From a virus, in IMG/VR virus record IMGVR_UViG_3300030101_002235, positions 14,938 through 37,914 of that record: DNA of 22,977 bases; one strand, 5' to 3'. Below the pieces are notes generated by a model. It saw only the letters and a program-made list of their open reading frames with translations. It was not told where the DNA came from and ran no database searches. Position numbers and translations under genes: made by a program. This document shows positions 17 through 15,489 of the stretch, piece after piece. Position 1 is the first letter of the stretch. Every line of letters starts with the position of its first letter.

Positions 17-784
17 TTAAGCGGCCCTCCGCAACCGCTCTTCTTGTAAGAACTGCATAAGTTCTGCTGTTTCTTGATCCGCGCACTCTGGATTGTCACG
101 CGACAACTCCTGAACAGCGCGACCTTCTTGCATGAGCTCATCCCACATATCTTTATAACTTACTCCATCGAAAGAAAAATCATCTCCGATTATTGTAAAT
201 GTACCAAAAGACCCGCGGCCTTTTTCCTGACGAAAGTCGCCAAGTCCAATAAACCGTCCGGCATTTTGCACAAGAGAAGATATAGAGTGAGTGCTAAAAT
301 TAGGTGTAGCGAACCGGATTTCTACTTCGGCACACCAGTTAGGAAGATAGGCGCGAGTACGCATATCCGGTGTCCGGTTCATATCCGCGGATTTGACTAC
401 GTCGATCTTCAGATACGGCTTGCCCCAGATGTTTATGTTTGTCTGTGGCAAGAAGATAAGCCGGTTAACATTGGTTTTGTTTACACCTGCCGTTTCAAGA
501 GCCGCCGTAGCCATTGCACCTTTTACGCCAGCCGCTGGGAAACACAAAAGCGTGTCACCTTTGGCTTGGGTATGCATGGAGTCGGCAAACTCCTGTTCAG
601 GATTATGTTTGATTTCTTTCTTTTCAGCCGCTGTCTTGCGGCCCGCGCCAACGAGAAGGTCCCGTTTAGCTTTTGCCGACATACTGTTGAAGTACATCGG
701 GGTTTGTCCCATCAAGCGGATTTTGATTTGGCCCTGCTTGATGACGGGGATGCTGATTGCATCACTTGTCTTTTTTGCTGCCAT
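17..784 (-). CDS. RAMP-superfamily-like (Cas7/Cas5/Csm3-type) phage protein, 255 aa
   Basis: Three features seen in the sequence match the RAMP (RRM/ferredoxin-like) superfamily of CRISPR effector subunits. There is a first strand followed by a TP element (IKIRLMGQTPMYF, residues 20-32). A FPAAGVKGAMATAA segment (82-95) resembles the PGSSLKGxLR loop of Csm3/Cmr-type proteins. A C-terminal glycine-rich loop (IGLGDFRQEKGRGSFG, 179-194) fits G-x-G-x(n)-G-x-G. Residues 205-255 are charged and helical. The start has a good AAGGAG ribosome site 6-7 nt upstream. The gene sits alone between its own promoter and the window edge, downstream of a terminator, so it appears to be separately transcribed. 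No other CRISPR-type gene is near. The RAMP assignment is by eye; role unknown (RNA or ssDNA binding is the natural guess). Alternative: an unrelated conserved phage protein with a chance glycine loop. Confidence 0.6.
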   Translation of the reverse strand: MAAKKTSDAISIPVIKQGQIKIRLMGQTPMYFNSMSAKAKRDLLVGAGRKTAAEKKEIKHNPEQEFADSMHTQAKGDTLLCFPAAGVKGAMATAALETAGVNKTNVNRLIFLPQTNINIWGKPYLKIDVVKSADMNRTPDMRTRAYLPNWCAEVEIRFATPNFSTHSISSLVQNAGRFIGLGDFRQEKGRGSFGTFTIIGDDFSFDGVSYKDMWDELMQEGRAVQELSRDNPECADQETAELMQFLQEERLRRAA

Positions 785-806: not shown

Positions 807-845
807 ACATAAGATTTATCCTACATATATGAGATAACATAAGAT
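807..845. promoter_or_regulatory. Candidate operator pair: direct repeat ACATAAGAT flanking the -10
   Basis: ACATAAGAT occurs at 807-815 and 837-845, exactly 30 bp apart, on either side of the promoter -10 region. The 13-mer ATATATGAGATAA (825-837) lies between them and recurs at 1791-1803 in the promoter of the RHH gene. The arrangement suggests cooperative binding of a small repressor; the encoded RHH protein is the obvious candidate. No binding data exist here. Confidence 0.4.
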
Positions 846-850
846 GTCAA
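822..850 (-). promoter_or_regulatory. Sigma70-like promoter of the RAMP-like gene
   Basis: On the minus strand a perfect TTGACA (850-845) is followed by a 17-nt spacer and TATGTA (827-822); TATATG (829-824) is a better -10 but with a 15-nt spacer. The start codon is at 784. The -35 is strong and the -10 weak, which would suit a regulated promoter. The -10 region includes the 13-bp sequence shared with the promoter at 1790-1818. Confidence 0.55.
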
Positions 851-854
851 GCAT

Positions 855-895
855 AAAAAAAACCCCCAAGGCGGGGGCAAACCAACCTTGGGGGT
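855..895 (-). terminator. Rho-independent terminator after the zinc-protein cassette
   Basis: A perfect 10-bp stem (ACCCCCAAGG, 862-871, with CCTTGGGGGT, 886-895) encloses a 14-nt loop and is followed on the minus strand by a U-tract (861-855). It lies about 76 nt past the stop codon of the NrdR-like gene. The loop holds a second G5 run that could pair with the distal C5 run to form a competing shorter hairpin. Confidence 0.85.
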
Positions 896-971
896 CCAAC
901 TACGGGATGTTTCTTATATACACCTTTAAACGCGCAGATACAAGCCCTTTTATCGCATATTACAAAGATAA

Positions 972-1250
972 TTATCCAATTCGACCATCATAAATAGCCC
1001 GTTCTAGCTCTTCGTCGGACATATTATCTATGTCAAGCTCCGTAAGCCGCGGTTTTACCACCCGTGGTTTAAAAGATTTTCTTTTTGGAACGGGTGGGGG
1101 CGGCTGGTTAACCACTTTTGGTTCTTCTAAAATTTCAATGGTGAACACACGGTGCTTGCACTTTTTACACTCACGCCGCCGCCGGAGGGTTCCGTCATGC
1201 GGACGACTGCCAAGCACCTTGGTGTCCGCACCGCACTTAACACACTTCAC
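972..1250 (-). CDS. NrdR-like zinc-ribbon protein without ATP-cone, 92 aa
   Basis: The N-terminus closely follows the zinc ribbon of the NrdR repressor of ribonucleotide reductase genes: CVKC (residues 3-6), TKVLGSR (10-16), DGTLRRRREC (19-28), KKC (29-31), then a FTIE stretch (36-39). In bacterial NrdR this is followed by an ATP-cone that senses ATP/dATP. Here it is replaced by a proline-rich linker (about 49-56) and a short acidic helix (LDIDNMSDEELERAIYDG). I chose the GTG at 1250: it is preceded by GGAG at 6 nt spacing, and its first codons begin the CxxC motif directly, whereas the longer frame back to 1382 adds 44 residues with no motif that run against the upstream gene. It overlaps the upstream zinc-ribbon gene by 14 nt. 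Likely a DNA-binding regulator, target unknown. Confidence 0.75.
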   Translation of the reverse strand: MKCVKCGADTKVLGSRPHDGTLRRRRECKKCKHRVFTIEILEEPKVVNQPPPPVPKRKSFKPRVVKPRLTELDIDNMSDEELERAIYDGRIG

Positions 1251-1425
1251 TTCGCTCTCCGATATAAAGTTTACAACAAAAACACTGAACCTGACCGTGT
1301 ACTTCGACGGAAGGTAGATTACATTTGCAACGCGGGCACTGGTTGTTGTCCAATAGCTCCTGCATTTTACCGGCGTATCCAAACGGTTTATACTGAAGTT
1401 CTCTATTCTTCGGCCATGCCATCAT
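1237..1425 (-). CDS. Small zinc-ribbon protein, 62 aa
   Basis: Two CxxC knuckles, CPRC (30-33) and CFCC (48-51), are separated by a short beta-hairpin-like stretch, a typical zinc ribbon. The first 28 residues are polar and carry no recognised motif. AGGAG lies 6 nt before the ATG. It overlaps the DnaJ-type gene upstream by 23 nt and the NrdR-like gene downstream by 14 nt, so the three are almost certainly co-translated. Phage zinc ribbons of this size act as transcription modulators, nuclease parts or protein adaptors; nothing here chooses among these. Confidence 0.7.
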   Translation of the reverse strand: MMAWPKNRELQYKPFGYAGKMQELLDNNQCPRCKCNLPSVEVHGQVQCFCCKLYIGERSEVC

Positions 1426-1555
1426 CTATTTCTCCTGTACCATTACACTCTTCGCAATCGTCCATGTACCCTTCAAGGTAACCGCCTCTTGTCCAATCGA
1501 CAACAGCGCGTTCATACTCCACTTTACCCTCTCCGCCACATTCTGGACATATCAT
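1403..1555 (-). CDS. Small DnaJ-type zinc-finger protein, 50 aa
   Basis: A very short gene with two CxxCxGxG motifs, CPECGGEG (residues 3-10) and CEECNGTG (34-41). Together these make one zinc site of the DnaJ central domain. There is no J domain and no substrate-binding domain. I chose the ATG at 1555 because GGGAG lies 8 nt upstream and the start runs straight into the first motif; an in-frame ATG at 1570 would add five residues but lacks a ribosome site. It overlaps the next gene by 23 nt. The Cys and Gly spacing and the overlap make it a convincing gene despite its size. Possible role: protein-protein contact in replication or regulation. Confidence 0.7.
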   Translation of the reverse strand: MICPECGGEGKVEYERAVVDWTRGGYLEGYMDDCEECNGTGEIDDGMAEE

Positions 1556-1614
1556 CCCATAAACTCCCATCTAATAGGTAAATTTTTTTTGGGCAACGCC
1601 CGACACATTTTAAA

Positions 1615-1758
1615 TTAAACCTTTTGTGCTCGTTTGTAAGTATCAAAGATTATTCGTAGCTGACCGCTAATCGTGCGGCCCTCTGCTTTGGCAATCTTCT
1701 TGATTTCGGAGTACACCTCAATCGGAACCAGAACAGATTTCCATTTAGTCGTATCCAT
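1615..1758 (-). CDS. Ribbon-helix-helix (Arc/CopG-type) DNA-binding protein, 47 aa
   Basis: The 47 residues fit one RHH domain: a short strand (WKSVLVPIEV), helix A (VYSEIKKIAKAEG), a turn (RTIS) and helix B (GQLRIIFDTYKRAQ). Such proteins bind DNA as dimers through the paired strands, usually as transcriptional repressors. The ATG at 1758 is chosen because GGAG sits 5 nt upstream and the RHH strand follows directly; the frame stays open to 1821, but that would pass through the promoter. First gene of the cassette that continues with the three zinc proteins. It probably regulates its own promoter, whose -10 is flanked by paired TTATGTAA sites, and perhaps the RAMP-like gene. Confidence 0.8.
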   Translation of the reverse strand: MDTTKWKSVLVPIEVYSEIKKIAKAEGRTISGQLRIIFDTYKRAQKV

Positions 1759-1778
1759 AATAACTCCACATATTGTGT

Positions 1779-1812
1779 TTATGTAAGCGAATATATGAGA
1801 TAAGTTATGTAA
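1779..1812. promoter_or_regulatory. Candidate operator pair: TTATGTAA repeats around the RHH promoter -10
   Basis: TTATGTAA occurs at 1779-1786 and 1805-1812, flanking the -10 and the 13-mer ATATATGAGATAA (1791-1803). TTATGT is the reverse complement of the ACATAA core repeated at the other promoter (807, 837). Likely autoregulatory sites for the RHH protein; inference only. Confidence 0.4.
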
Positions 1813-1818
1813 TTGCAA
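1790..1818 (-). promoter_or_regulatory. Promoter of the RHH/zinc-protein cassette
   Basis: On the minus strand TTGCAA (1818-1813), a 17-nt spacer and TATATT (1795-1790) make a good sigma70-type promoter. This puts the transcript start about 25 nt before the RHH start codon. The -35 abuts the U-tract of the polymerase operon terminator, so one transcription unit ends exactly where the next begins. Confidence 0.65.
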
Positions 1819-1845
1819 CAAAAAAGACCCCGCCGGAGCGGGGTC
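1818..1845 (-). terminator. Rho-independent terminator of the replication operon
   Basis: GACCCCGC (1826-1833) pairs perfectly with GCGGGGTC (1838-1845) around a 4-nt loop. It is followed on the minus strand by six U residues (1825-1820). It lies 27 nt past the polymerase stop codon. Confidence 0.9.
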
Positions 1846-8200: not shown

Positions 8201-8779
8201 TTATTTACTCCTCTTGATAACTGCGCGTTGTCCGACATAGGCTCCGAATAACTCCATTGGGAAGTCGTCACCATTCTCAACACGTTCCTTGACAAAGGCA
8301 CGAAGCGTCTGCGGATGGATCTCCGTTTTTTGCTCCGCGTAATGGCCTTCTTTTTCGGCAAGGGCTTTGAAGGACGACGCCTTGTCGTCTTCGCCCCTGC
8401 CAAATTGACACGCAACGGTATTTTTAATGATGTCATCGTAGCCTTTCTCCCGAAGCCACTCATAAGCGGCAGGTCTGTTATCCACGAGGATAGATGCCCC
8501 GTAGGTTTGTTTAACGGTCACTTCTGACCCATCGTCTAGTTTCATCGAAGACAGACCGATTTCTGCAAGCATCGTCGGTAAATCTTCATCCGTAAGTTTC
8601 AAAAGACCTTTCTTCGCCTTCTTGAGGTCCGCCTCAAGTGACGATATGTATTCTTCTTCATCTCGGATTTTGCGGGCTATCTCAGCCACTGTTTGCAGAC
8701 CAGCTTGATCTAGCTTTTCTACGCCGGAGGACAGGCTTTGTTCAAAGTCCTGCTCCATTTGATCAAAGATATCGCTCAT
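8201..8779 (-). CDS. Conserved phage replication-module protein with N-terminal coiled coil, 192 aa
   Basis: Residues 30-62 form a charged heptad-like helix (AEIARKIRDEEEYISSLEAD...). The middle has LPTMLAEIGLSSMKLDDGSEVTV (68-90), then YEWLREKGYDDIIKNTV (106-122), FGRGEDD (126-132) and HPQTLRAFVKERVENG (155-170). I recognise this as a widespread but unnamed phage family, usually next to an SSB or nuclease gene. It is the first gene of the replication operon, preceded by GGAG at 7 nt and by the divergent promoter. A scaffold or recombination-mediator role with the SSB-like neighbour is a guess. Confidence 0.7.
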   Translation of the reverse strand: MSDIFDQMEQDFEQSLSSGVEKLDQAGLQTVAEIARKIRDEEEYISSLEADLKKAKKGLLKLTDEDLPTMLAEIGLSSMKLDDGSEVTVKQTYGASILVDNRPAAYEWLREKGYDDIIKNTVACQFGRGEDDKASSFKALAEKEGHYAEQKTEIHPQTLRAFVKERVENGDDFPMELFGAYVGQRAVIKRSK

Positions 8780-8817: not shown

Positions 8818-8846
8818 TTGACAAATTGTATATAGACGCATAAATT
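8818..8846 (+). promoter_or_regulatory. Promoter of the SNF2-like helicase gene
   Basis: TTGACA (8818-8823), a 17-nt spacer and TAAATT (8841-8846), followed by AAGGAG (8856-8861) and the ATG at 8868. The leader is very short, about 15 nt. Overlaps almost completely with the opposing promoter at 8829-8857. Confidence 0.75.
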
Positions 8847-8857
8847 CGCATAGTCAA
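8829..8857 (-). promoter_or_regulatory. Promoter of the replication operon, opposing the helicase promoter
   Basis: On the minus strand TTGACT (8857-8852), a 17-nt spacer and TATATA (8834-8829). The start codon of the first operon gene is at 8779. The -35 boxes of this and the plus-strand promoter sit in an inverted repeat CCTTGAC (8816-8822) / GTCAAGG (8853-8859), so the two cannot be occupied at once. Confidence 0.7.
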
Positions 8858-8867
8858 GGAGAAAATT

Positions 8868-10316
8868 ATGGGAAAATACAAGTTCAGGACAGAACCTTTT
8901 GAACACCAGCAGAAAGCTTTAGATGACTCGTGGTCCGCTGACTATTACGCGCTATTTATGGAGATGGGAACAGGTAAGTCCAAAGTAGCTATTGATACAA
9001 TCGGCATGTTGTATCAAGCAAGAAAGATAAGCGCGGCACTTATAGTTGCACCAAAAGGTGTCTATGACAACTGGGTACAAGGAGAAATACCTGCACACCT
9101 GCCAGATGAGATCAAACGCATGGTGGTACGGTGGACGCCGTCTAATACGAAGAAATTTCAGCAGGAAATGAAAGACTTAGTGTATGGGCCCTTTGACGGC
9201 ATAAAGATATTTGTGATGAACATAGAGGCGTTGTCTACGCCGCGGGGGACTAAAGCGGCATATGCTTTTTTATGCAGAAATCCCAATAATATGATGATTG
9301 TGGATGAGAGCACTACTATCAAAAACCGTAAGGCTACTCGTACAAAAAATGTAATGATGTTAGCCAAGGACGCAAAGTATAGGCGTATCTTGACTGGCTC
9401 TCCTGTAACCAAGTCACCTATGGATCTGTTCAGTCAGTGTGCGTTTCTTTCGCCCTCTGCCCTCAACTTTAAAAGTTATTACTCGTTTCAGAACCGTTAT
9501 GCCGTTGTGCAGAAGCGGACTATGGGTCCGCGAGCATTTCAGGAGATCGTGGCCTACAGGCGCTTGGATGAGTTGAACGAGAAGCTCAACCGGTTCAGTA
9601 ACCGCATATTGAAAGAAGAGTGCCTTGATCTGCCTGCCAAGATGTACATACGGCGTGATGTGCCGTTGACCGCGGAGCAGGATAAAGCTTACGTGCAGAT
9701 GAAAAAGCTAGCCTTGGCAAAGCTGGACAACGGAGAGTTAGCCACAACAGCCAGTGTTCTAACGCAGATTATGCGCCTGCAACAGATATGCTGTGGGCAC
9801 ATACAATCTGACGACGGTGAGTTGGTTACTTTGGCGAGCAACAGATACAAAGAGCTAATCGACGTAACAGAAGAGTTACAGGGAAAGGCGATCATTTGGG
9901 CGACGTATACACACGACATCCAACAGATAGCCTCTGCCCTGCGCGACCGCTTTGGGCCCGAAGCGGTCGCAACCTATTACGGTGACACCCGACAAGATGA
10001 ACGACAAGAGACTGTAGATAAGTTTCAAGACAAAGATAGCCCGTTGCGTTTCTTTGTTGGTCAGCCGCGGACGGGGGGCTATGGCATTACCCTGACTGCC
10101 GCCAACACCGTGATATATTTTAGCAACAGCTATGATCTGGAGATACGTCTGCAATCTGAGGACCGGGCGCACCGTATCAGTCAGGATCAGAAAGTTACTT
10201 ACATTGATCTTGTATCGCCTAAGACTATTGACGAGAAGATCTTAAAGGCTCTACGAGGCAAGATAGATTTAGCGGGCAAGGTGCTTGGAGAGCAGGCTAG
10301 GGCTTGGTTGGTTTAA
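8868..10316 (+). CDS. SNF2/DEAD-type superfamily 2 helicase, 482 aa
   Basis: Walker A MGTGKS (33-38), motif Ia-like VAPKGVYDNWV (60-70), motif II DEST (146-149), motif III LTGSPV (175-180), a C-terminal helicase half starting near GKAIIWATYTHDIQ, motif V TGGYGITLTAA (402-412) and motif VI QSEDRAHRISQ (429-439). The QxEDRAHRxxQ form is typical of SNF2 proteins. It lacks accessory DNA-recognition domains and is a compact phage version. Such phage proteins are thought to be the replication helicase or a fork-remodelling or translocating ATPase. The only plus-strand gene; AAGGAG 6 nt before the ATG. Its stop codon overlaps the stop of the converging virion gene within TTTAAA. Confidence 0.95.
   Translation: MGKYKFRTEPFEHQQKALDDSWSADYYALFMEMGTGKSKVAIDTIGMLYQARKISAALIVAPKGVYDNWVQGEIPAHLPDEIKRMVVRWTPSNTKKFQQEMKDLVYGPFDGIKIFVMNIEALSTPRGTKAAYAFLCRNPNNMMIVDESTTIKNRKATRTKNVMMLAKDAKYRRILTGSPVTKSPMDLFSQCAFLSPSALNFKSYYSFQNRYAVVQKRTMGPRAFQEIVAYRRLDELNEKLNRFSNRILKEECLDLPAKMYIRRDVPLTAEQDKAYVQMKKLALAKLDNGELATTASVLTQIMRLQQICCGHIQSDDGELVTLASNRYKELIDVTEELQGKAIIWATYTHDIQQIASALRDRFGPEAVATYYGDTRQDERQETVDKFQDKDSPLRFFVGQPRTGGYGITLTAANTVIYFSNSYDLEIRLQSEDRAHRISQDQKVTYIDLVSPKTIDEKILKALRGKIDLAGKVLGEQARAWLV
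9943..9970. repeat. Perfect 10-bp GC-rich inverted repeat inside the helicase gene
   Basis: GCGACCGCTT (9943-9952) and AAGCGGTCGC (9961-9970) are exact reverse complements around an 8-nt loop that contains GGGCCC. It encodes RDRFGPEAVA, in a surface region between the C-terminal helicase strands. No U-tract follows. Confidence 0.6.
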
Positions 10317-11650: not shown

Positions 11651-14600
11651 CAGCCCATCAAGCTCCCTATGCCCTGTTGACGGATAAGACCAGAAGCTAC
11701 GTCGTTAGGGAACATCGCCGCATAACGAGTGCGGTCTACGTTACCGCTAGGTGCAGGCGTCTGAGGTGACACCGACGCAAGGGTGGTTGTGGGTTGTGCC
11801 ACCGGTTGCGCCGGAATTGGTGGTGGTGTAGGCATAGCTGTTGGAGCGACGGAGCTTACAGACATATTTTGCGGTGTAGGAAGTGGCGTCGTGCGACCAG
11901 TTCCAACATCTTCATCTTCTGCGGCTTCTCTAATTGCAAACGGTGACATAGACCCCGCAGTCGCAAAACCTTTGCGTGAAAGTATTTCTACTATTGCTCT
12001 AGTTTGTTTTACGCCCTCTTCTGCTGTCTTTGGACTTCGTATTAATTTAGCGGCTACTTCAGGGTCTGTAAAAATTAACTGAATGACTTCCATTCTCTTA
12101 GAAGCAGGGATATTTTTAAAGAAATCCAAAGCAATTCCTTTGGTAAATCCTGCGGCGCTAATTGATGCGGTGCCGCCAGTTCCCCCTGTTAAAGCTTGAT
12201 AAGCTTTTGTACCGCCAGCTAAACCAATCATGCCAACATAAAAATCAAACAAAGGTCCCGCTTGTTTAACTATATCGGGATCAGCTAATTTGCCTGCTGA
12301 ATCGGCAGCGGCTAATCGAACCATTTGATTAGATATTGCTCTCATACGGCGTATTTGGTTTTTATCCATAATGCCGTAACTTTCAGCCATATCTACTAAG
12401 GATCTTTTACCGGCCCCCTGTCCGGGTAACGGTTGAAAAAGAATTTTGTGAAAAGTTAAGTGGTCAAAAGTTTTACCTTCGCCACCCGCTTCCATCATGG
12501 CGTGTTGAAGAATTGTGTTAAAATATCCTTCTTTAATTTTTGATTGCATTTTGGCTTGTTCTGCGGCGGGTAAAAATTTGCCGTCAGGGCCTTTATATTT
12601 AACGCTGGTTAAACGAAACAGACGACGTAACCCGCCTATTGGATCAGCCTGACGCGCACCTTTAGGAATAAAATTTAGCGCTTCTGTTAAAGCAATATGT
12701 GGAGAAGAATTACCTATTTGGGCCGCAAGAAAAGTTTGGCTGTCCGTTATTTGTTTCGCGGCATCAGAGCGGTTTTCATAAAATTCAACGGTGCGTTGTG
12801 CCTTAACCGCACTATCAAGGTCTGACTTTAAATTAGGAAACAACTCCATTAATTCAGCGTTGTCTCTCTTCCAATTTTCTAAAGATTTAGCGTTTATAGA
12901 ACCATCGGGGTTCATAGCAGATAATCTTAAAGTTCTAACCGCACCTTCCATAATATTATTTATGGAAGTAAAAGTGCCTGTAGCTCCCTCAAAACCTTGT
13001 TCTTCTGCAAATTTAGCTACCCCTTGAAGCTGTTGTACTCGTAAATCAACCATGTCCGGGTTGCTTCTAACGAAGGAACTAATAAGAAGCTCTGGGGGGA
13101 TACGATTACCGCGCATCATATCTTTTGCGCGGCCTTTTCCAACTATAGACCGCGTAAATACGTTATTTAAGGCAAAAGAAAACGCTCTTGCAATGTCAAA
13201 GGAATCTTTTTCTCCATCAGGTAAAAGATCTAAATCGTCCATGATGGCTTCTGCTATTTCGCCTAATTTACGAGCTTGGTTTGCCGTTCCCATACGAGTA
13301 GTCGCGCCGCTAGCCACTTGTGCCAAAGTATTTAAAACTTCGGACCTAACGTCAAATAATTCTTTTGCGGATATTGGAGAAACTCGTTCAGGGTCTAATT
13401 TTTTCTGCTCCAACTCCAGAAGTTTTAATTTAGCTTGTGCTACTTTCAAGAAATTTTCTTGAGAAGGCCCGGATACATCAATTTCAAAAACTTCATTCGC
13501 TCCGTCGCCTGTTTCAGGATCTTTAAGAATAAACCTTTCATCTCCCCTAAATTTACCCTTTTCTAAATTCTCAATTAAGGTCTGCATTCGATCAACTTGC
13601 CTATTTAAAGGAGCCCCTCTCATTTTGGCTTCTACTTGAGTTCGTATTAAGGCAACCGGATCAGAATCTTGCGCGTCTATGGACTGTATTATTAGATTTT
13701 GTTGTTCAATAGCTTCTTTTATGTCTAACCCTAAACGAGCTTTGGCACTCCTAACAAAATTAGGTAGACCGCCAAGAGCAGCAACAAACTCTTCCCTATA
13801 ACCAGCAGGCAAGTCGTTTACGAGCTCATCATATTTAGTTATAAAAGAAGGCATTACGTCTCCATCTATAACGTCCTCCGGCTCAAACACATTTACTCCG
13901 CCGGTTTTCCCCCAAAGTTCTTTCTCTCTAGCTCTGGCAAAACCTAGCTGAGTGTCTAATATGTCGGCTAGTTCCAAAGAAAAAGTTTTACGAGACTTAG
14001 GAGTGCCTAAATTTTCATCTCCTGTTAAAACCCTATTACGAGCAGCTATTCTTGTATCTACGGCTCTGCGTAAACGACCCGTTATCATATCACTCATTAA
14101 ACTTTTTCTGAGAATAGCAGCAGTTCGCAAGGACTCTGGGCTGTTTTCAGACACCAACCCATAAATAAACTTATCAAAAAAGGATTTTGCATTTCTGTCT
14201 GCTTTTTTCCTAGCAGCCAGTAGATCAGGGTTTTTAGTAGCCATTTCAGCTTCTAATCCCATAATAATACCTGTGTTATCCTCCAATCTTTGAGCAGCAG
14301 TAAAATTAACTCCGGGGAAAACTTCTTGTAAGATGGCATTTGTTTCAGGACTGTTTAAGTCCTCCATCATACGTTCATAATCTCCGTCATATTTTGTGTA
14401 TAGTTCGTCAATACGCTTAAACAACTTTCTTTGTTTGCCTTCGGCCATTTTACGAATAAAATTATCGGCTTCTTCTCCAGCATCAACTTGAGTGGCTTTT
14501 GAATAAACGCTCGGCAAAAATTTAGCAAAAGTGGCTGCAAGAGTGTTTCCACCTAAAAACTCAGCCGCTAATCGTAATCCTGTCCCTCCGGGATCTGCCC

Positions 14601-15489
14601 CTTCTGCAACATATGCTCCTCCGGCTGAACCTAGCCCTGCCACTGTTTCAGCACCAACTGTCAAACCTGCGCCGACTTTGCTTCCACGAGCAGTTCTACC
14701 CATGCCCTCCAGCATATCTTCTATAGTTGCTGTAATACGAGCACCCGTGGGACGAGGAGCGCCTTCCGCTATATTTGCAAGAAAATCACGAGCGGCTCTA
14801 GTTCCTGTCTCTTTAAATAAAAAAGGAAATTGTATACCGGCGGTAGCCCCGCCAAGGGTTCGCATGGTCTCTATTGCTTGTTTCTGACCGGGAAGAATTG
14901 GTTTTTGAGGCCCTAAAGCTAATTCTTCTAAGGCGTCCGCGCCTTCATAAAGAAGTAAGCTACCCCCTATAAAAGAGGCAACTACGGGGGTGGCTCTTAC
15001 ACCAAACCCTATAAGAGATCTAGGCGGAGTTCTAAAAGTCTTAGCAGCCGTCAACTGTGCGGCTTTTGTCCCCGCTGCTACACTAGGGGCTGTTTTGAAC
15101 AACTCACCAAAAAAAGCACGAGATAAAGATCCTTTTTCAGCAGTTGTTAAAAGGGCGTTGATAGAGTCTGGATCTTTAAAATAAATGCTACGTTCAACTG
15201 GGTTCAAGTCGCGTATAGGGCGCTCCTCTGGCCCGTTAGGCCCTTCCATAGTCACAGTGTAATCAGGGCTTAAAAAATCGTAAAAGGTAGCCGTGCCATC
15301 TTGCAGTTTTTCATAACTAAAAAAGTTGGGGTCGTTTGCTATTTGAGGGGCGTAATCTTGAGTTGCAAACGTGGTTACCAAATCACGAGCCAAAGCTTCT
15401 GGGGCCTTTTGACCAAACTGTAACCGAAAGTCGTCGATCTCTTCCGGCAGCAAGTCTATTTTGTTAATTTGCAGATTCATCTTCGTCAT
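11650..15489 (-). CDS. Giant internal-virion/ejection-like protein, 1279 aa
   Basis: A very large protein without cysteine-rich or catalytic motifs. An Ala/Gly-rich hydrophobic stretch lies at about 160-185 (TPVVASFIGGSLLLYEG), with further Ala/Gly segments to about 330. Long charged helical regions follow (about 350-1000), then another Ala/Gly-rich stretch (LFDFYVGMIGLAGG) and a Pro/Thr/Ala-rich tail. This design, a helix-rich core with membrane-active segments, matches ejected internal virion proteins of short-tailed phages (T7 gp15/gp16 style), but I see no lytic transglycosylase motif. Start: the ATG at 15489 has AAGAAGG 4-5 nt upstream; the ATG at 15480 and GTG at 15543 are poorer. It overlaps the upstream gene by 26 nt. 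Function is inferred from size and position. Confidence 0.8.
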   Translation of the reverse strand: MTKMNLQINKIDLLPEEIDDFRLQFGQKAPEALARDLVTTFATQDYAPQIANDPNFFSYEKLQDGTATFYDFLSPDYTVTMEGPNGPEERPIRDLNPVERSIYFKDPDSINALLTTAEKGSLSRAFFGELFKTAPSVAAGTKAAQLTAAKTFRTPPRSLIGFGVRATPVVASFIGGSLLLYEGADALEELALGPQKPILPGQKQAIETMRTLGGATAGIQFPFLFKETGTRAARDFLANIAEGAPRPTGARITATIEDMLEGMGRTARGSKVGAGLTVGAETVAGLGSAGGAYVAEGADPGGTGLRLAAEFLGGNTLAATFAKFLPSVYSKATQVDAGEEADNFIRKMAEGKQRKLFKRIDELYTKYDGDYERMMEDLNSPETNAILQEVFPGVNFTAAQRLEDNTGIIMGLEAEMATKNPDLLAARKKADRNAKSFFDKFIYGLVSENSPESLRTAAILRKSLMSDMITGRLRRAVDTRIAARNRVLTGDENLGTPKSRKTFSLELADILDTQLGFARAREKELWGKTGGVNVFEPEDVIDGDVMPSFITKYDELVNDLPAGYREEFVAALGGLPNFVRSAKARLGLDIKEAIEQQNLIIQSIDAQDSDPVALIRTQVEAKMRGAPLNRQVDRMQTLIENLEKGKFRGDERFILKDPETGDGANEVFEIDVSGPSQENFLKVAQAKLKLLELEQKKLDPERVSPISAKELFDVRSEVLNTLAQVASGATTRMGTANQARKLGEIAEAIMDDLDLLPDGEKDSFDIARAFSFALNNVFTRSIVGKGRAKDMMRGNRIPPELLISSFVRSNPDMVDLRVQQLQGVAKFAEEQGFEGATGTFTSINNIMEGAVRTLRLSAMNPDGSINAKSLENWKRDNAELMELFPNLKSDLDSAVKAQRTVEFYENRSDAAKQITDSQTFLAAQIGNSSPHIALTEALNFIPKGARQADPIGGLRRLFRLTSVKYKGPDGKFLPAAEQAKMQSKIKEGYFNTILQHAMMEAGGEGKTFDHLTFHKILFQPLPGQGAGKRSLVDMAESYGIMDKNQIRRMRAISNQMVRLAAADSAGKLADPDIVKQAGPLFDFYVGMIGLAGGTKAYQALTGGTGGTASISAAGFTKGIALDFFKNIPASKRMEVIQLIFTDPEVAAKLIRSPKTAEEGVKQTRAIVEILSRKGFATAGSMSPFAIREAAEDEDVGTGRTTPLPTPQNMSVSSVAPTAMPTPPPIPAQPVAQPTTTLASVSPQTPAPSGNVDRTRYAAMFPNDVASGLIRQQGIGSLMG

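Follow-up and report, generated by a model that had tools for sequence, protein, structure and literature searches.

The 47-residue RHH protein encoded in this phage DNA is likely, on the sequence evidence, an autoregulated repressor of early and replication promoters, which would bind as side-by-side dimers on one face of the DNA. Its predicted sites stand before its own gene and before many early and replication genes, not before structural genes; hence it is probably the phage's early-gene repressor. The features on which this reading is built are all read from sequence: the 7-bp units, their spacing, their position within promoters, their conservation, their location in the early region, and their association with the RHH gene. 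The family that carries this predicted DNA-binding protein consists of uncultured, mostly marine phages.

The window, the whole stretch of 22,977 nucleotides that was analysed, runs from position 14938 to position 37914 of an uncultured virus record with a length of 37,914 bp (IMGVR_UViG_3300030101_002235, also labelled L004). Runs of N are present in L004 at about 9921 and at 14930, the latter at the left edge of the window; together with unusual sequence at 14500-14937, they suggest scaffold joins or misassembly just outside the window.

The 7-bp unit and its arrays

The conserved unit is TC[CTG][CT][AT]TA, repeated directly at 10 bp or, as a divergent inverted repeat, at 11 bp, with the pairs placed between the -35 and the start region. 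In the window and 34 dereplicated relatives taken together, 63 direct pairs are spaced by exactly 10 bp, against a shuffled mean of 0.3; other spacings give 10 direct pairs at 16 bp, 6 at 20 bp and few elsewhere. Divergent inverted pairs in the same loci have start offsets of 11 (27 pairs) and 21 (14 pairs), plus a few singletons. In the largest subgroup of relatives, the sequences upstream of the RHH gene share the core TATCCTATATATTCGCTTACA over the -10, with variants elsewhere. A scan with this core yielded other promoters built from the 7-bp word in 10-bp steps, and the 11-bp divergent form (TATGGGATAAATCTTATA and similar) was found upstream of further genes. In 133 TTGAC promoters the units sit between the -35 and the start; the array mostly begins 5-10 nt from TTGAC or else lies over the -10 and the start, its offset from the -35 differing among promoter classes.

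The features of the window are as follows.

17-784, minus strand: 255-aa gene behind P1 (phrog_4652, unknown function)
808-847, minus strand: predicted P1 operator, units TCTTATG (844-838), TCTCATA (834-828), inverted TGTAGGA (825-819) and TCTTATG (814-808)
822-850, minus strand: P1, promoter of the 255-aa gene; TTGACA (850-845), 17 bp, TATGTA (827-822), a weak -10
862-878, minus strand: intrinsic terminator just upstream of P1
1552-1571, minus strand: further site, possibly a coincidence (19.4 bits), which overlaps the start codon of the gene at 1403-1570
1615-1758, minus strand: RHH gene, 47 aa (MDTTKWKSVLVPIEVYSEIKKIAKAEGRTISGQLRIIFDTYKRAQKV)
1784-1803, minus strand: predicted P2 operator, units TCTCATA (1800-1794) and TCGCTTA (1790-1784), 10 bp apart
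1790-1818, minus strand: P2, promoter of the RHH gene; TTGCAA (1818-1813), 17 bp, TATATT (1795-1790)
1804-1810, minus strand: possible degenerate third P2 unit, TTACATA, 10 bp upstream; not conserved in relatives
1826-1845, minus strand: intrinsic terminator just upstream of P2
1873-3768, minus strand: DNA polymerase A, which ends the series of replication genes and immediately precedes the RHH gene
8201-8779, minus strand: DUF7307 (Pam3 gp33-like) gene, by profile match; it begins the series of replication genes
8818-8846, plus strand: P3 rightward promoter, for the SNF2 helicase gene; TTGACA-17-TAAATT
8823-8852: predicted P3 operator, three units in 10-bp phase (TTGTATA, GACGCATA, TTCGCATA), common to two opposed promoters
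8829-8857, minus strand: P3 leftward promoter, for the replication genes; TTGACT (8857-8852)-17-TATATA (8834-8829)
8868-10316, plus strand: SNF2-type helicase, 482 aa (Pfam SNF2-rel_dom and Helicase_C, phrog_62)

P1 and P2 each directly follow an intrinsic terminator. The preliminary description had proposed a regulon of these two promoters under the RHH protein, linked by a shared 13-mer and by paired ACATAA/TTATGT flanks. Its observations were reproduced: the 13-mer ATATATGAGATAA is an exact match at 825-837 and 1791-1803, ACATAA or its complement stands at 807, 837, 1779 and 1805 with spacings of 30 and 26 bp, both 13-mers lie in promoter-like places on the minus strand (TTGCAA-17-TATATT at P2, TTGACA-17-TATGTA at P1), and the 47-aa RHH-like ORF starts at 1758 on that strand, downstream of P2. 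A shared promoter element in a regulon, with the RHH gene behind one of the promoters, is strongly favoured by the sequences of relatives; the limit of two promoters falls, the record holding about a dozen sites and more than two such promoters.

The 13-mer itself was rejected as the shared element. Repeated 13-mers number 13 in the window versus 9.2 expected under a first-order Markov null, so that this repeat alone is unremarkable and compatible with chance. It is changed in near relatives, where it becomes ATATATAAGATAA while the 7-bp units persist; at P1 the units are kept in L005, L008 and L011 although the 13-mer changes, and in L009 and L010 the 255-aa gene lies behind differently arranged copies of the same unit. 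The hexamer pairs were likewise abandoned as paired operators: ACATAA occurs 16 times versus 11.8 expected, and its upstream copy at P2, accounted for by the degenerate unit TTACATA, is missing in relatives, while the downstream copy overlaps the edge of the conserved TCTCATA/TCGCTTA array (1800-1784). A 20-bp palindrome, TTATC...GATAA, prompted by a one-mismatch copy at record position 9543, gave way to the unit model because that copy is a divergent pair.

On its own strand, P1 reads TTGACA TCTTATG ttA TCTCATA taTGTAGGATAAA TCTTATG. A single unit thus occurs three times, as the two TTATGT words and as the 13-mer, with steps of 10 and 20 bp between copies, and once more inverted at 11 bp. Given that they share a single 10-bp register, the 30-bp spacing at P1 is simply three times 10. 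With a matrix trained on relatives, the P1 direct and divergent pairs score 15.7 and 15.0 bits, and the exact pair at P2 scores 19.7 bits.

For a scan of the genome, this record was held out of the training of the unit matrix. The window has four composite-site clusters of at least 14 bits (808-847, 1552-1571, 1784-1803 and 8823-8852), whereas its null has a mean of 0.5 and a maximum of 3 in 200; the array of 10-bp-phased units is not a product of chance. The whole 37.9-kb record holds 13 such clusters versus 0.73 for the null, all within record positions 6440-25250 and none in the terminase, portal or other structural genes. Similarly, the 58.6-kb G001 has no cluster in 40.4 kb of structural genes and eight in the remainder. 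Scatter at non-promoter sites, which the preliminary description had named for the 13-mer as evidence against a regulon, was not found: of the 85 clusters in nine records, all but three (82) fall outside predicted coding sequence, a boundary that is approximate because genes were predicted by a simple ORF rule.

At L004 11914-12023, a dense cluster of units that recurs in relatives lies between two divergent TTGAC promoters; the 490 bp around it contain no clear gene. Promoters with arrays are followed by a conserved block, AGCGCGAAAC...TCCTACGG, at L004 12082-12133 (plus strand), L005 9859, L070 3197-3242 and L073 2189. This block occupies two unrelated contexts, here a stretch in which no gene is clear, and in L070-type phages the leader of the RHH mRNA. 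It is possibly a small RNA; its folding z-scores are weak (-0.8 and -1.7), and an Rfam search of the early region, the block included, returned nothing at gathering score.

The two opposed promoters of P3 overlap completely around a single array, which scores 14.4 and 16.8 bits, and the replication genes run from 8779 down to the polymerase. Relatives of P3 were sampled through the DUF7307 gene, not through the RHH gene, which gave 54 distinct loci. The nested TTGAC...GTCAA arrangement is kept in 53 of these, the remaining one starting with TTGTC, and a tandem pair of at least 12 bits is present in 45 of the 54, compared with 0.9% of shuffled sequences.

The RHH protein and its proposed action

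The protein matches Pfam RHH_5 with an E-value of 7.7e-5 and 22.8 bits, under the 26-bit gathering cut-off, and the Arc-like repressor families of PHROG at E 0.04-0.05. IMG/VR holds 365 relatives; a tblastn search against isolated phages gave no match. The AF2 monomer, built from 14 sequences, has helices at 13-26 and 30-46 after an N-terminal segment (pLDDT 84), in keeping with a layout of a strand then two helices in about 45 residues, although the strand itself needs the dimer. Its nearest folds include CopG (TM 0.72), Arc (0.61), AmrZ (0.74) and CdbA, with non-significant E-values, as is unsurprising for only 47 residues. When the protein is aligned by hand to CopG, its DNA-facing residues would be W6, S8 and L10.

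In published phage genomes, unannotated RHH-like proteins were seen at L086 8538-8759 (HTVC023P gp13) and L085 10602-10778 (023Pt_psg01); gp13 has the strand MDIDKWKSV, and its genome is without array enrichment. Three RHH-carrying contigs of 20-27 kb with arrays (L189, L190 and L191) come from bacterial MAGs (Verrucomicrobiales, Flavobacteriaceae and Pirellulaceae) and are probably mis-binned phage contigs.

We infer from the arrays that the RHH protein is the binder, that its binding represses, and that the effect is one of timing. RHH dimers would bind the 7-bp units in both arrangements, the direct repeats and the divergent ones. Since 10 bp is one helical turn, adjacent dimers would lie on the same face of the DNA, and cooperative binding is possible. 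Bound RHH would exclude the host RNA polymerase, because the arrays lie on the -35/-10 spacer, on the -10 or on the start region. At P2, this would provide negative feedback on the RHH gene; at P1, control of the 255-aa gene together with anything behind it; and at P3, joint control of the replication genes and the SNF2 helicase. The early genes would thus fire first and then be damped as RHH accumulates, while the structural genes, which have no sites, would continue. A phage integrase was not found in the nine records, some of which are partial, with controls positive in 14 of 14. A lysogeny repressor is therefore unlikely, and we propose timing control within the lytic cycle.

It is also conceivable, if unlikely, that RHH binds the arrays but activates or switches promoters, for example between the opposed P3 promoters, rather than simply repressing them all. 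The single array common to two fully overlapping promoters at P3 would suit such a role, as would the variable offset of arrays from the -35 between promoter classes. However, the placement of most arrays, on the -35/-10 spacer, on the -10 or on the start, is one that repressors typically use, and the array of the RHH gene itself lies over its -10. Given these positions and the precedents of RelB, F55 and omega/ParB, repression by occlusion is the most economical reading. A bolder extension of repression by RHH can be offered only tentatively: one 47-aa protein might govern early and replication transcription in a large group of marine phages by a combinatorial code, in which the number, orientation and offset of the units would set the order and strength of shut-off, with the triple array of P3 as a switch between replication genes and helicase.

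Association of the arrays with the RHH gene

In the first set of loci, the co-occurrence of arrays and RHH gene is by construction, because those loci were chosen for having RHH. Two independent samples bear on this point, one of loci chosen by DNA polymerase and the other by the DUF7307 gene described above. In the polymerase sample, 54 loci with a clear RHH gene (577 kb) have 0.81 direct and 0.50 divergent exact pairs per 10 kb, whereas 23 related loci without it (235 kb) have 0.04 and 0, a comparison in which phylogeny and composition are partly confounded because the RHH-less loci are also the more distant ones and contain fewer units per kb. The sole pair among the latter is in L125, a locus cut shortly after the polymerase. 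Of the 52 distinct RHH upstream regions in this sample, 46 carry an array of at least 12 bits (shuffled, 0) and the other six have no pair at that threshold, and the spacing profile of these upstream regions has a sharp peak at 10 bp.

HTVC023P and 023Pt_psg01 have more units per kb than this record, yet 0 and 1 exact direct pairs, respectively. The RHH-like protein of HTVC023P has a strand that begins similarly (KWKSV), but that genome has no clear arrays, which counts against the main reading. For 023Pt_psg01, weak arrays led, through a search, to an unannotated RHH_1-type protein of 58 aa with an array upstream of its gene. The Burkholderiales contig L192 encodes the RHH helices behind another strand (WKTIAVQ) and lacks an array, a single case that would fit a strand that determines specificity.

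The neighbours of the RHH gene are zinc-ribbon proteins and the DNA polymerase; no toxin gene was recognised beside it with Pfam and PHROG. Directly after it, at 1403-1570 (minus strand), lies a gene for a small DnaJ-CXXCXGXG-like protein, and the RHH gene of 023Pt_psg01 is likewise followed by a DnaJ-like zinc-ribbon neighbour. At 972-1382 (minus strand) an NrdR-like zinc-ribbon protein is encoded (Pfam E 3.7e-10). The presence of such genes in the RHH operon, and the fact that arrays accompany backbone genes as well as RHH, could point to another phage protein, such as one of these, or to a host protein as the binder, with RHH as a bystander. We regard this as very improbable: the NrdR-like gene, rejected as a candidate for this reason, occurs only in this record among those compared, the DnaJ-like gene is found in just 2 of 8 others, no promoter carries an array more consistently than that of the RHH gene itself, and related phages without RHH lack arrays. 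Less probable still is that the host RNA polymerase recognises the repeats as part of the promoter, in the manner of an extended -10: the units do overlap TATA-like -10 elements and follow TTGAC, but the TC before each ATA, the exact 10/20-bp repetition, the reversed or divergent forms and the arrays downstream of the -10 are not promoter features, and arrays are again lacking in relatives without the RHH gene.

Comparison with known systems

Among the nearest folds of the 47-aa protein are Arc of phage P22 and CopG, RHH proteins of phage and plasmid; the sequence similarity to Arc is weak (Arc-like chain 1u9p, E 0.043). Arc and CopG bind one or a few palindromic operators and are not known to use a dispersed array code. 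Three phages with related replication genes (polymerase 49-57% identical) and a similar gene order were also compared: DSL-LC04 has neither a detected RHH protein nor arrays, and the RHH-like proteins of HTVC023P and 023Pt_psg01 are very divergent.

Repeated operators are already known for RHH repressors. In the open-access literature searched, we found no RHH protein controlling lytic-phage early promoters, nor any description of this lineage, the 10-bp phase, the direct/divergent grammar or an early regulon of this scale in phages.

The RHH protein omega/ParB of plasmid pSM19035 binds as dimers along adjoining short repeats, whose orientations are mixed (PMC9499535); its repeats are 7-bp heptads in a centromere, whereas the units here are in 10-bp direct phase or 11-bp divergent and lie in phage promoters. 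In the RHH antitoxin RelB of E. coli, dimers bind on one DNA face and a precise spacing of half-sites is needed (PMC2812701). RelB belongs to a toxin-antitoxin pair and reads 6-bp repeats, unlike the RHH protein here, which has no recognised toxin gene beside it. F55 of the Sulfolobus virus SSV1 is a small viral RHH repressor acting on tandem repeats in early promoters and its own (PMC5569661). The present system resembles it in having short repeats at a fixed 10-bp spacing in the regulator's own promoter and in others. However, F55 comes from an archaeal virus with a lysogenic state and has the consensus ATAGATAG, while the units here are TCYYATA, the promoters are of bacterial type and no integrase was found in the nine records.

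The predicted 10-bp-phase operator is an addition to the RHH repertoire. For the related phage group there is now a concrete candidate for its early regulator, together with an operator code that can be read and a set of promoters for study. With this code, regulated genes can be predicted in contigs that lack annotation, and it has already led to a hidden RHH gene in the published genome of 023Pt_psg01.
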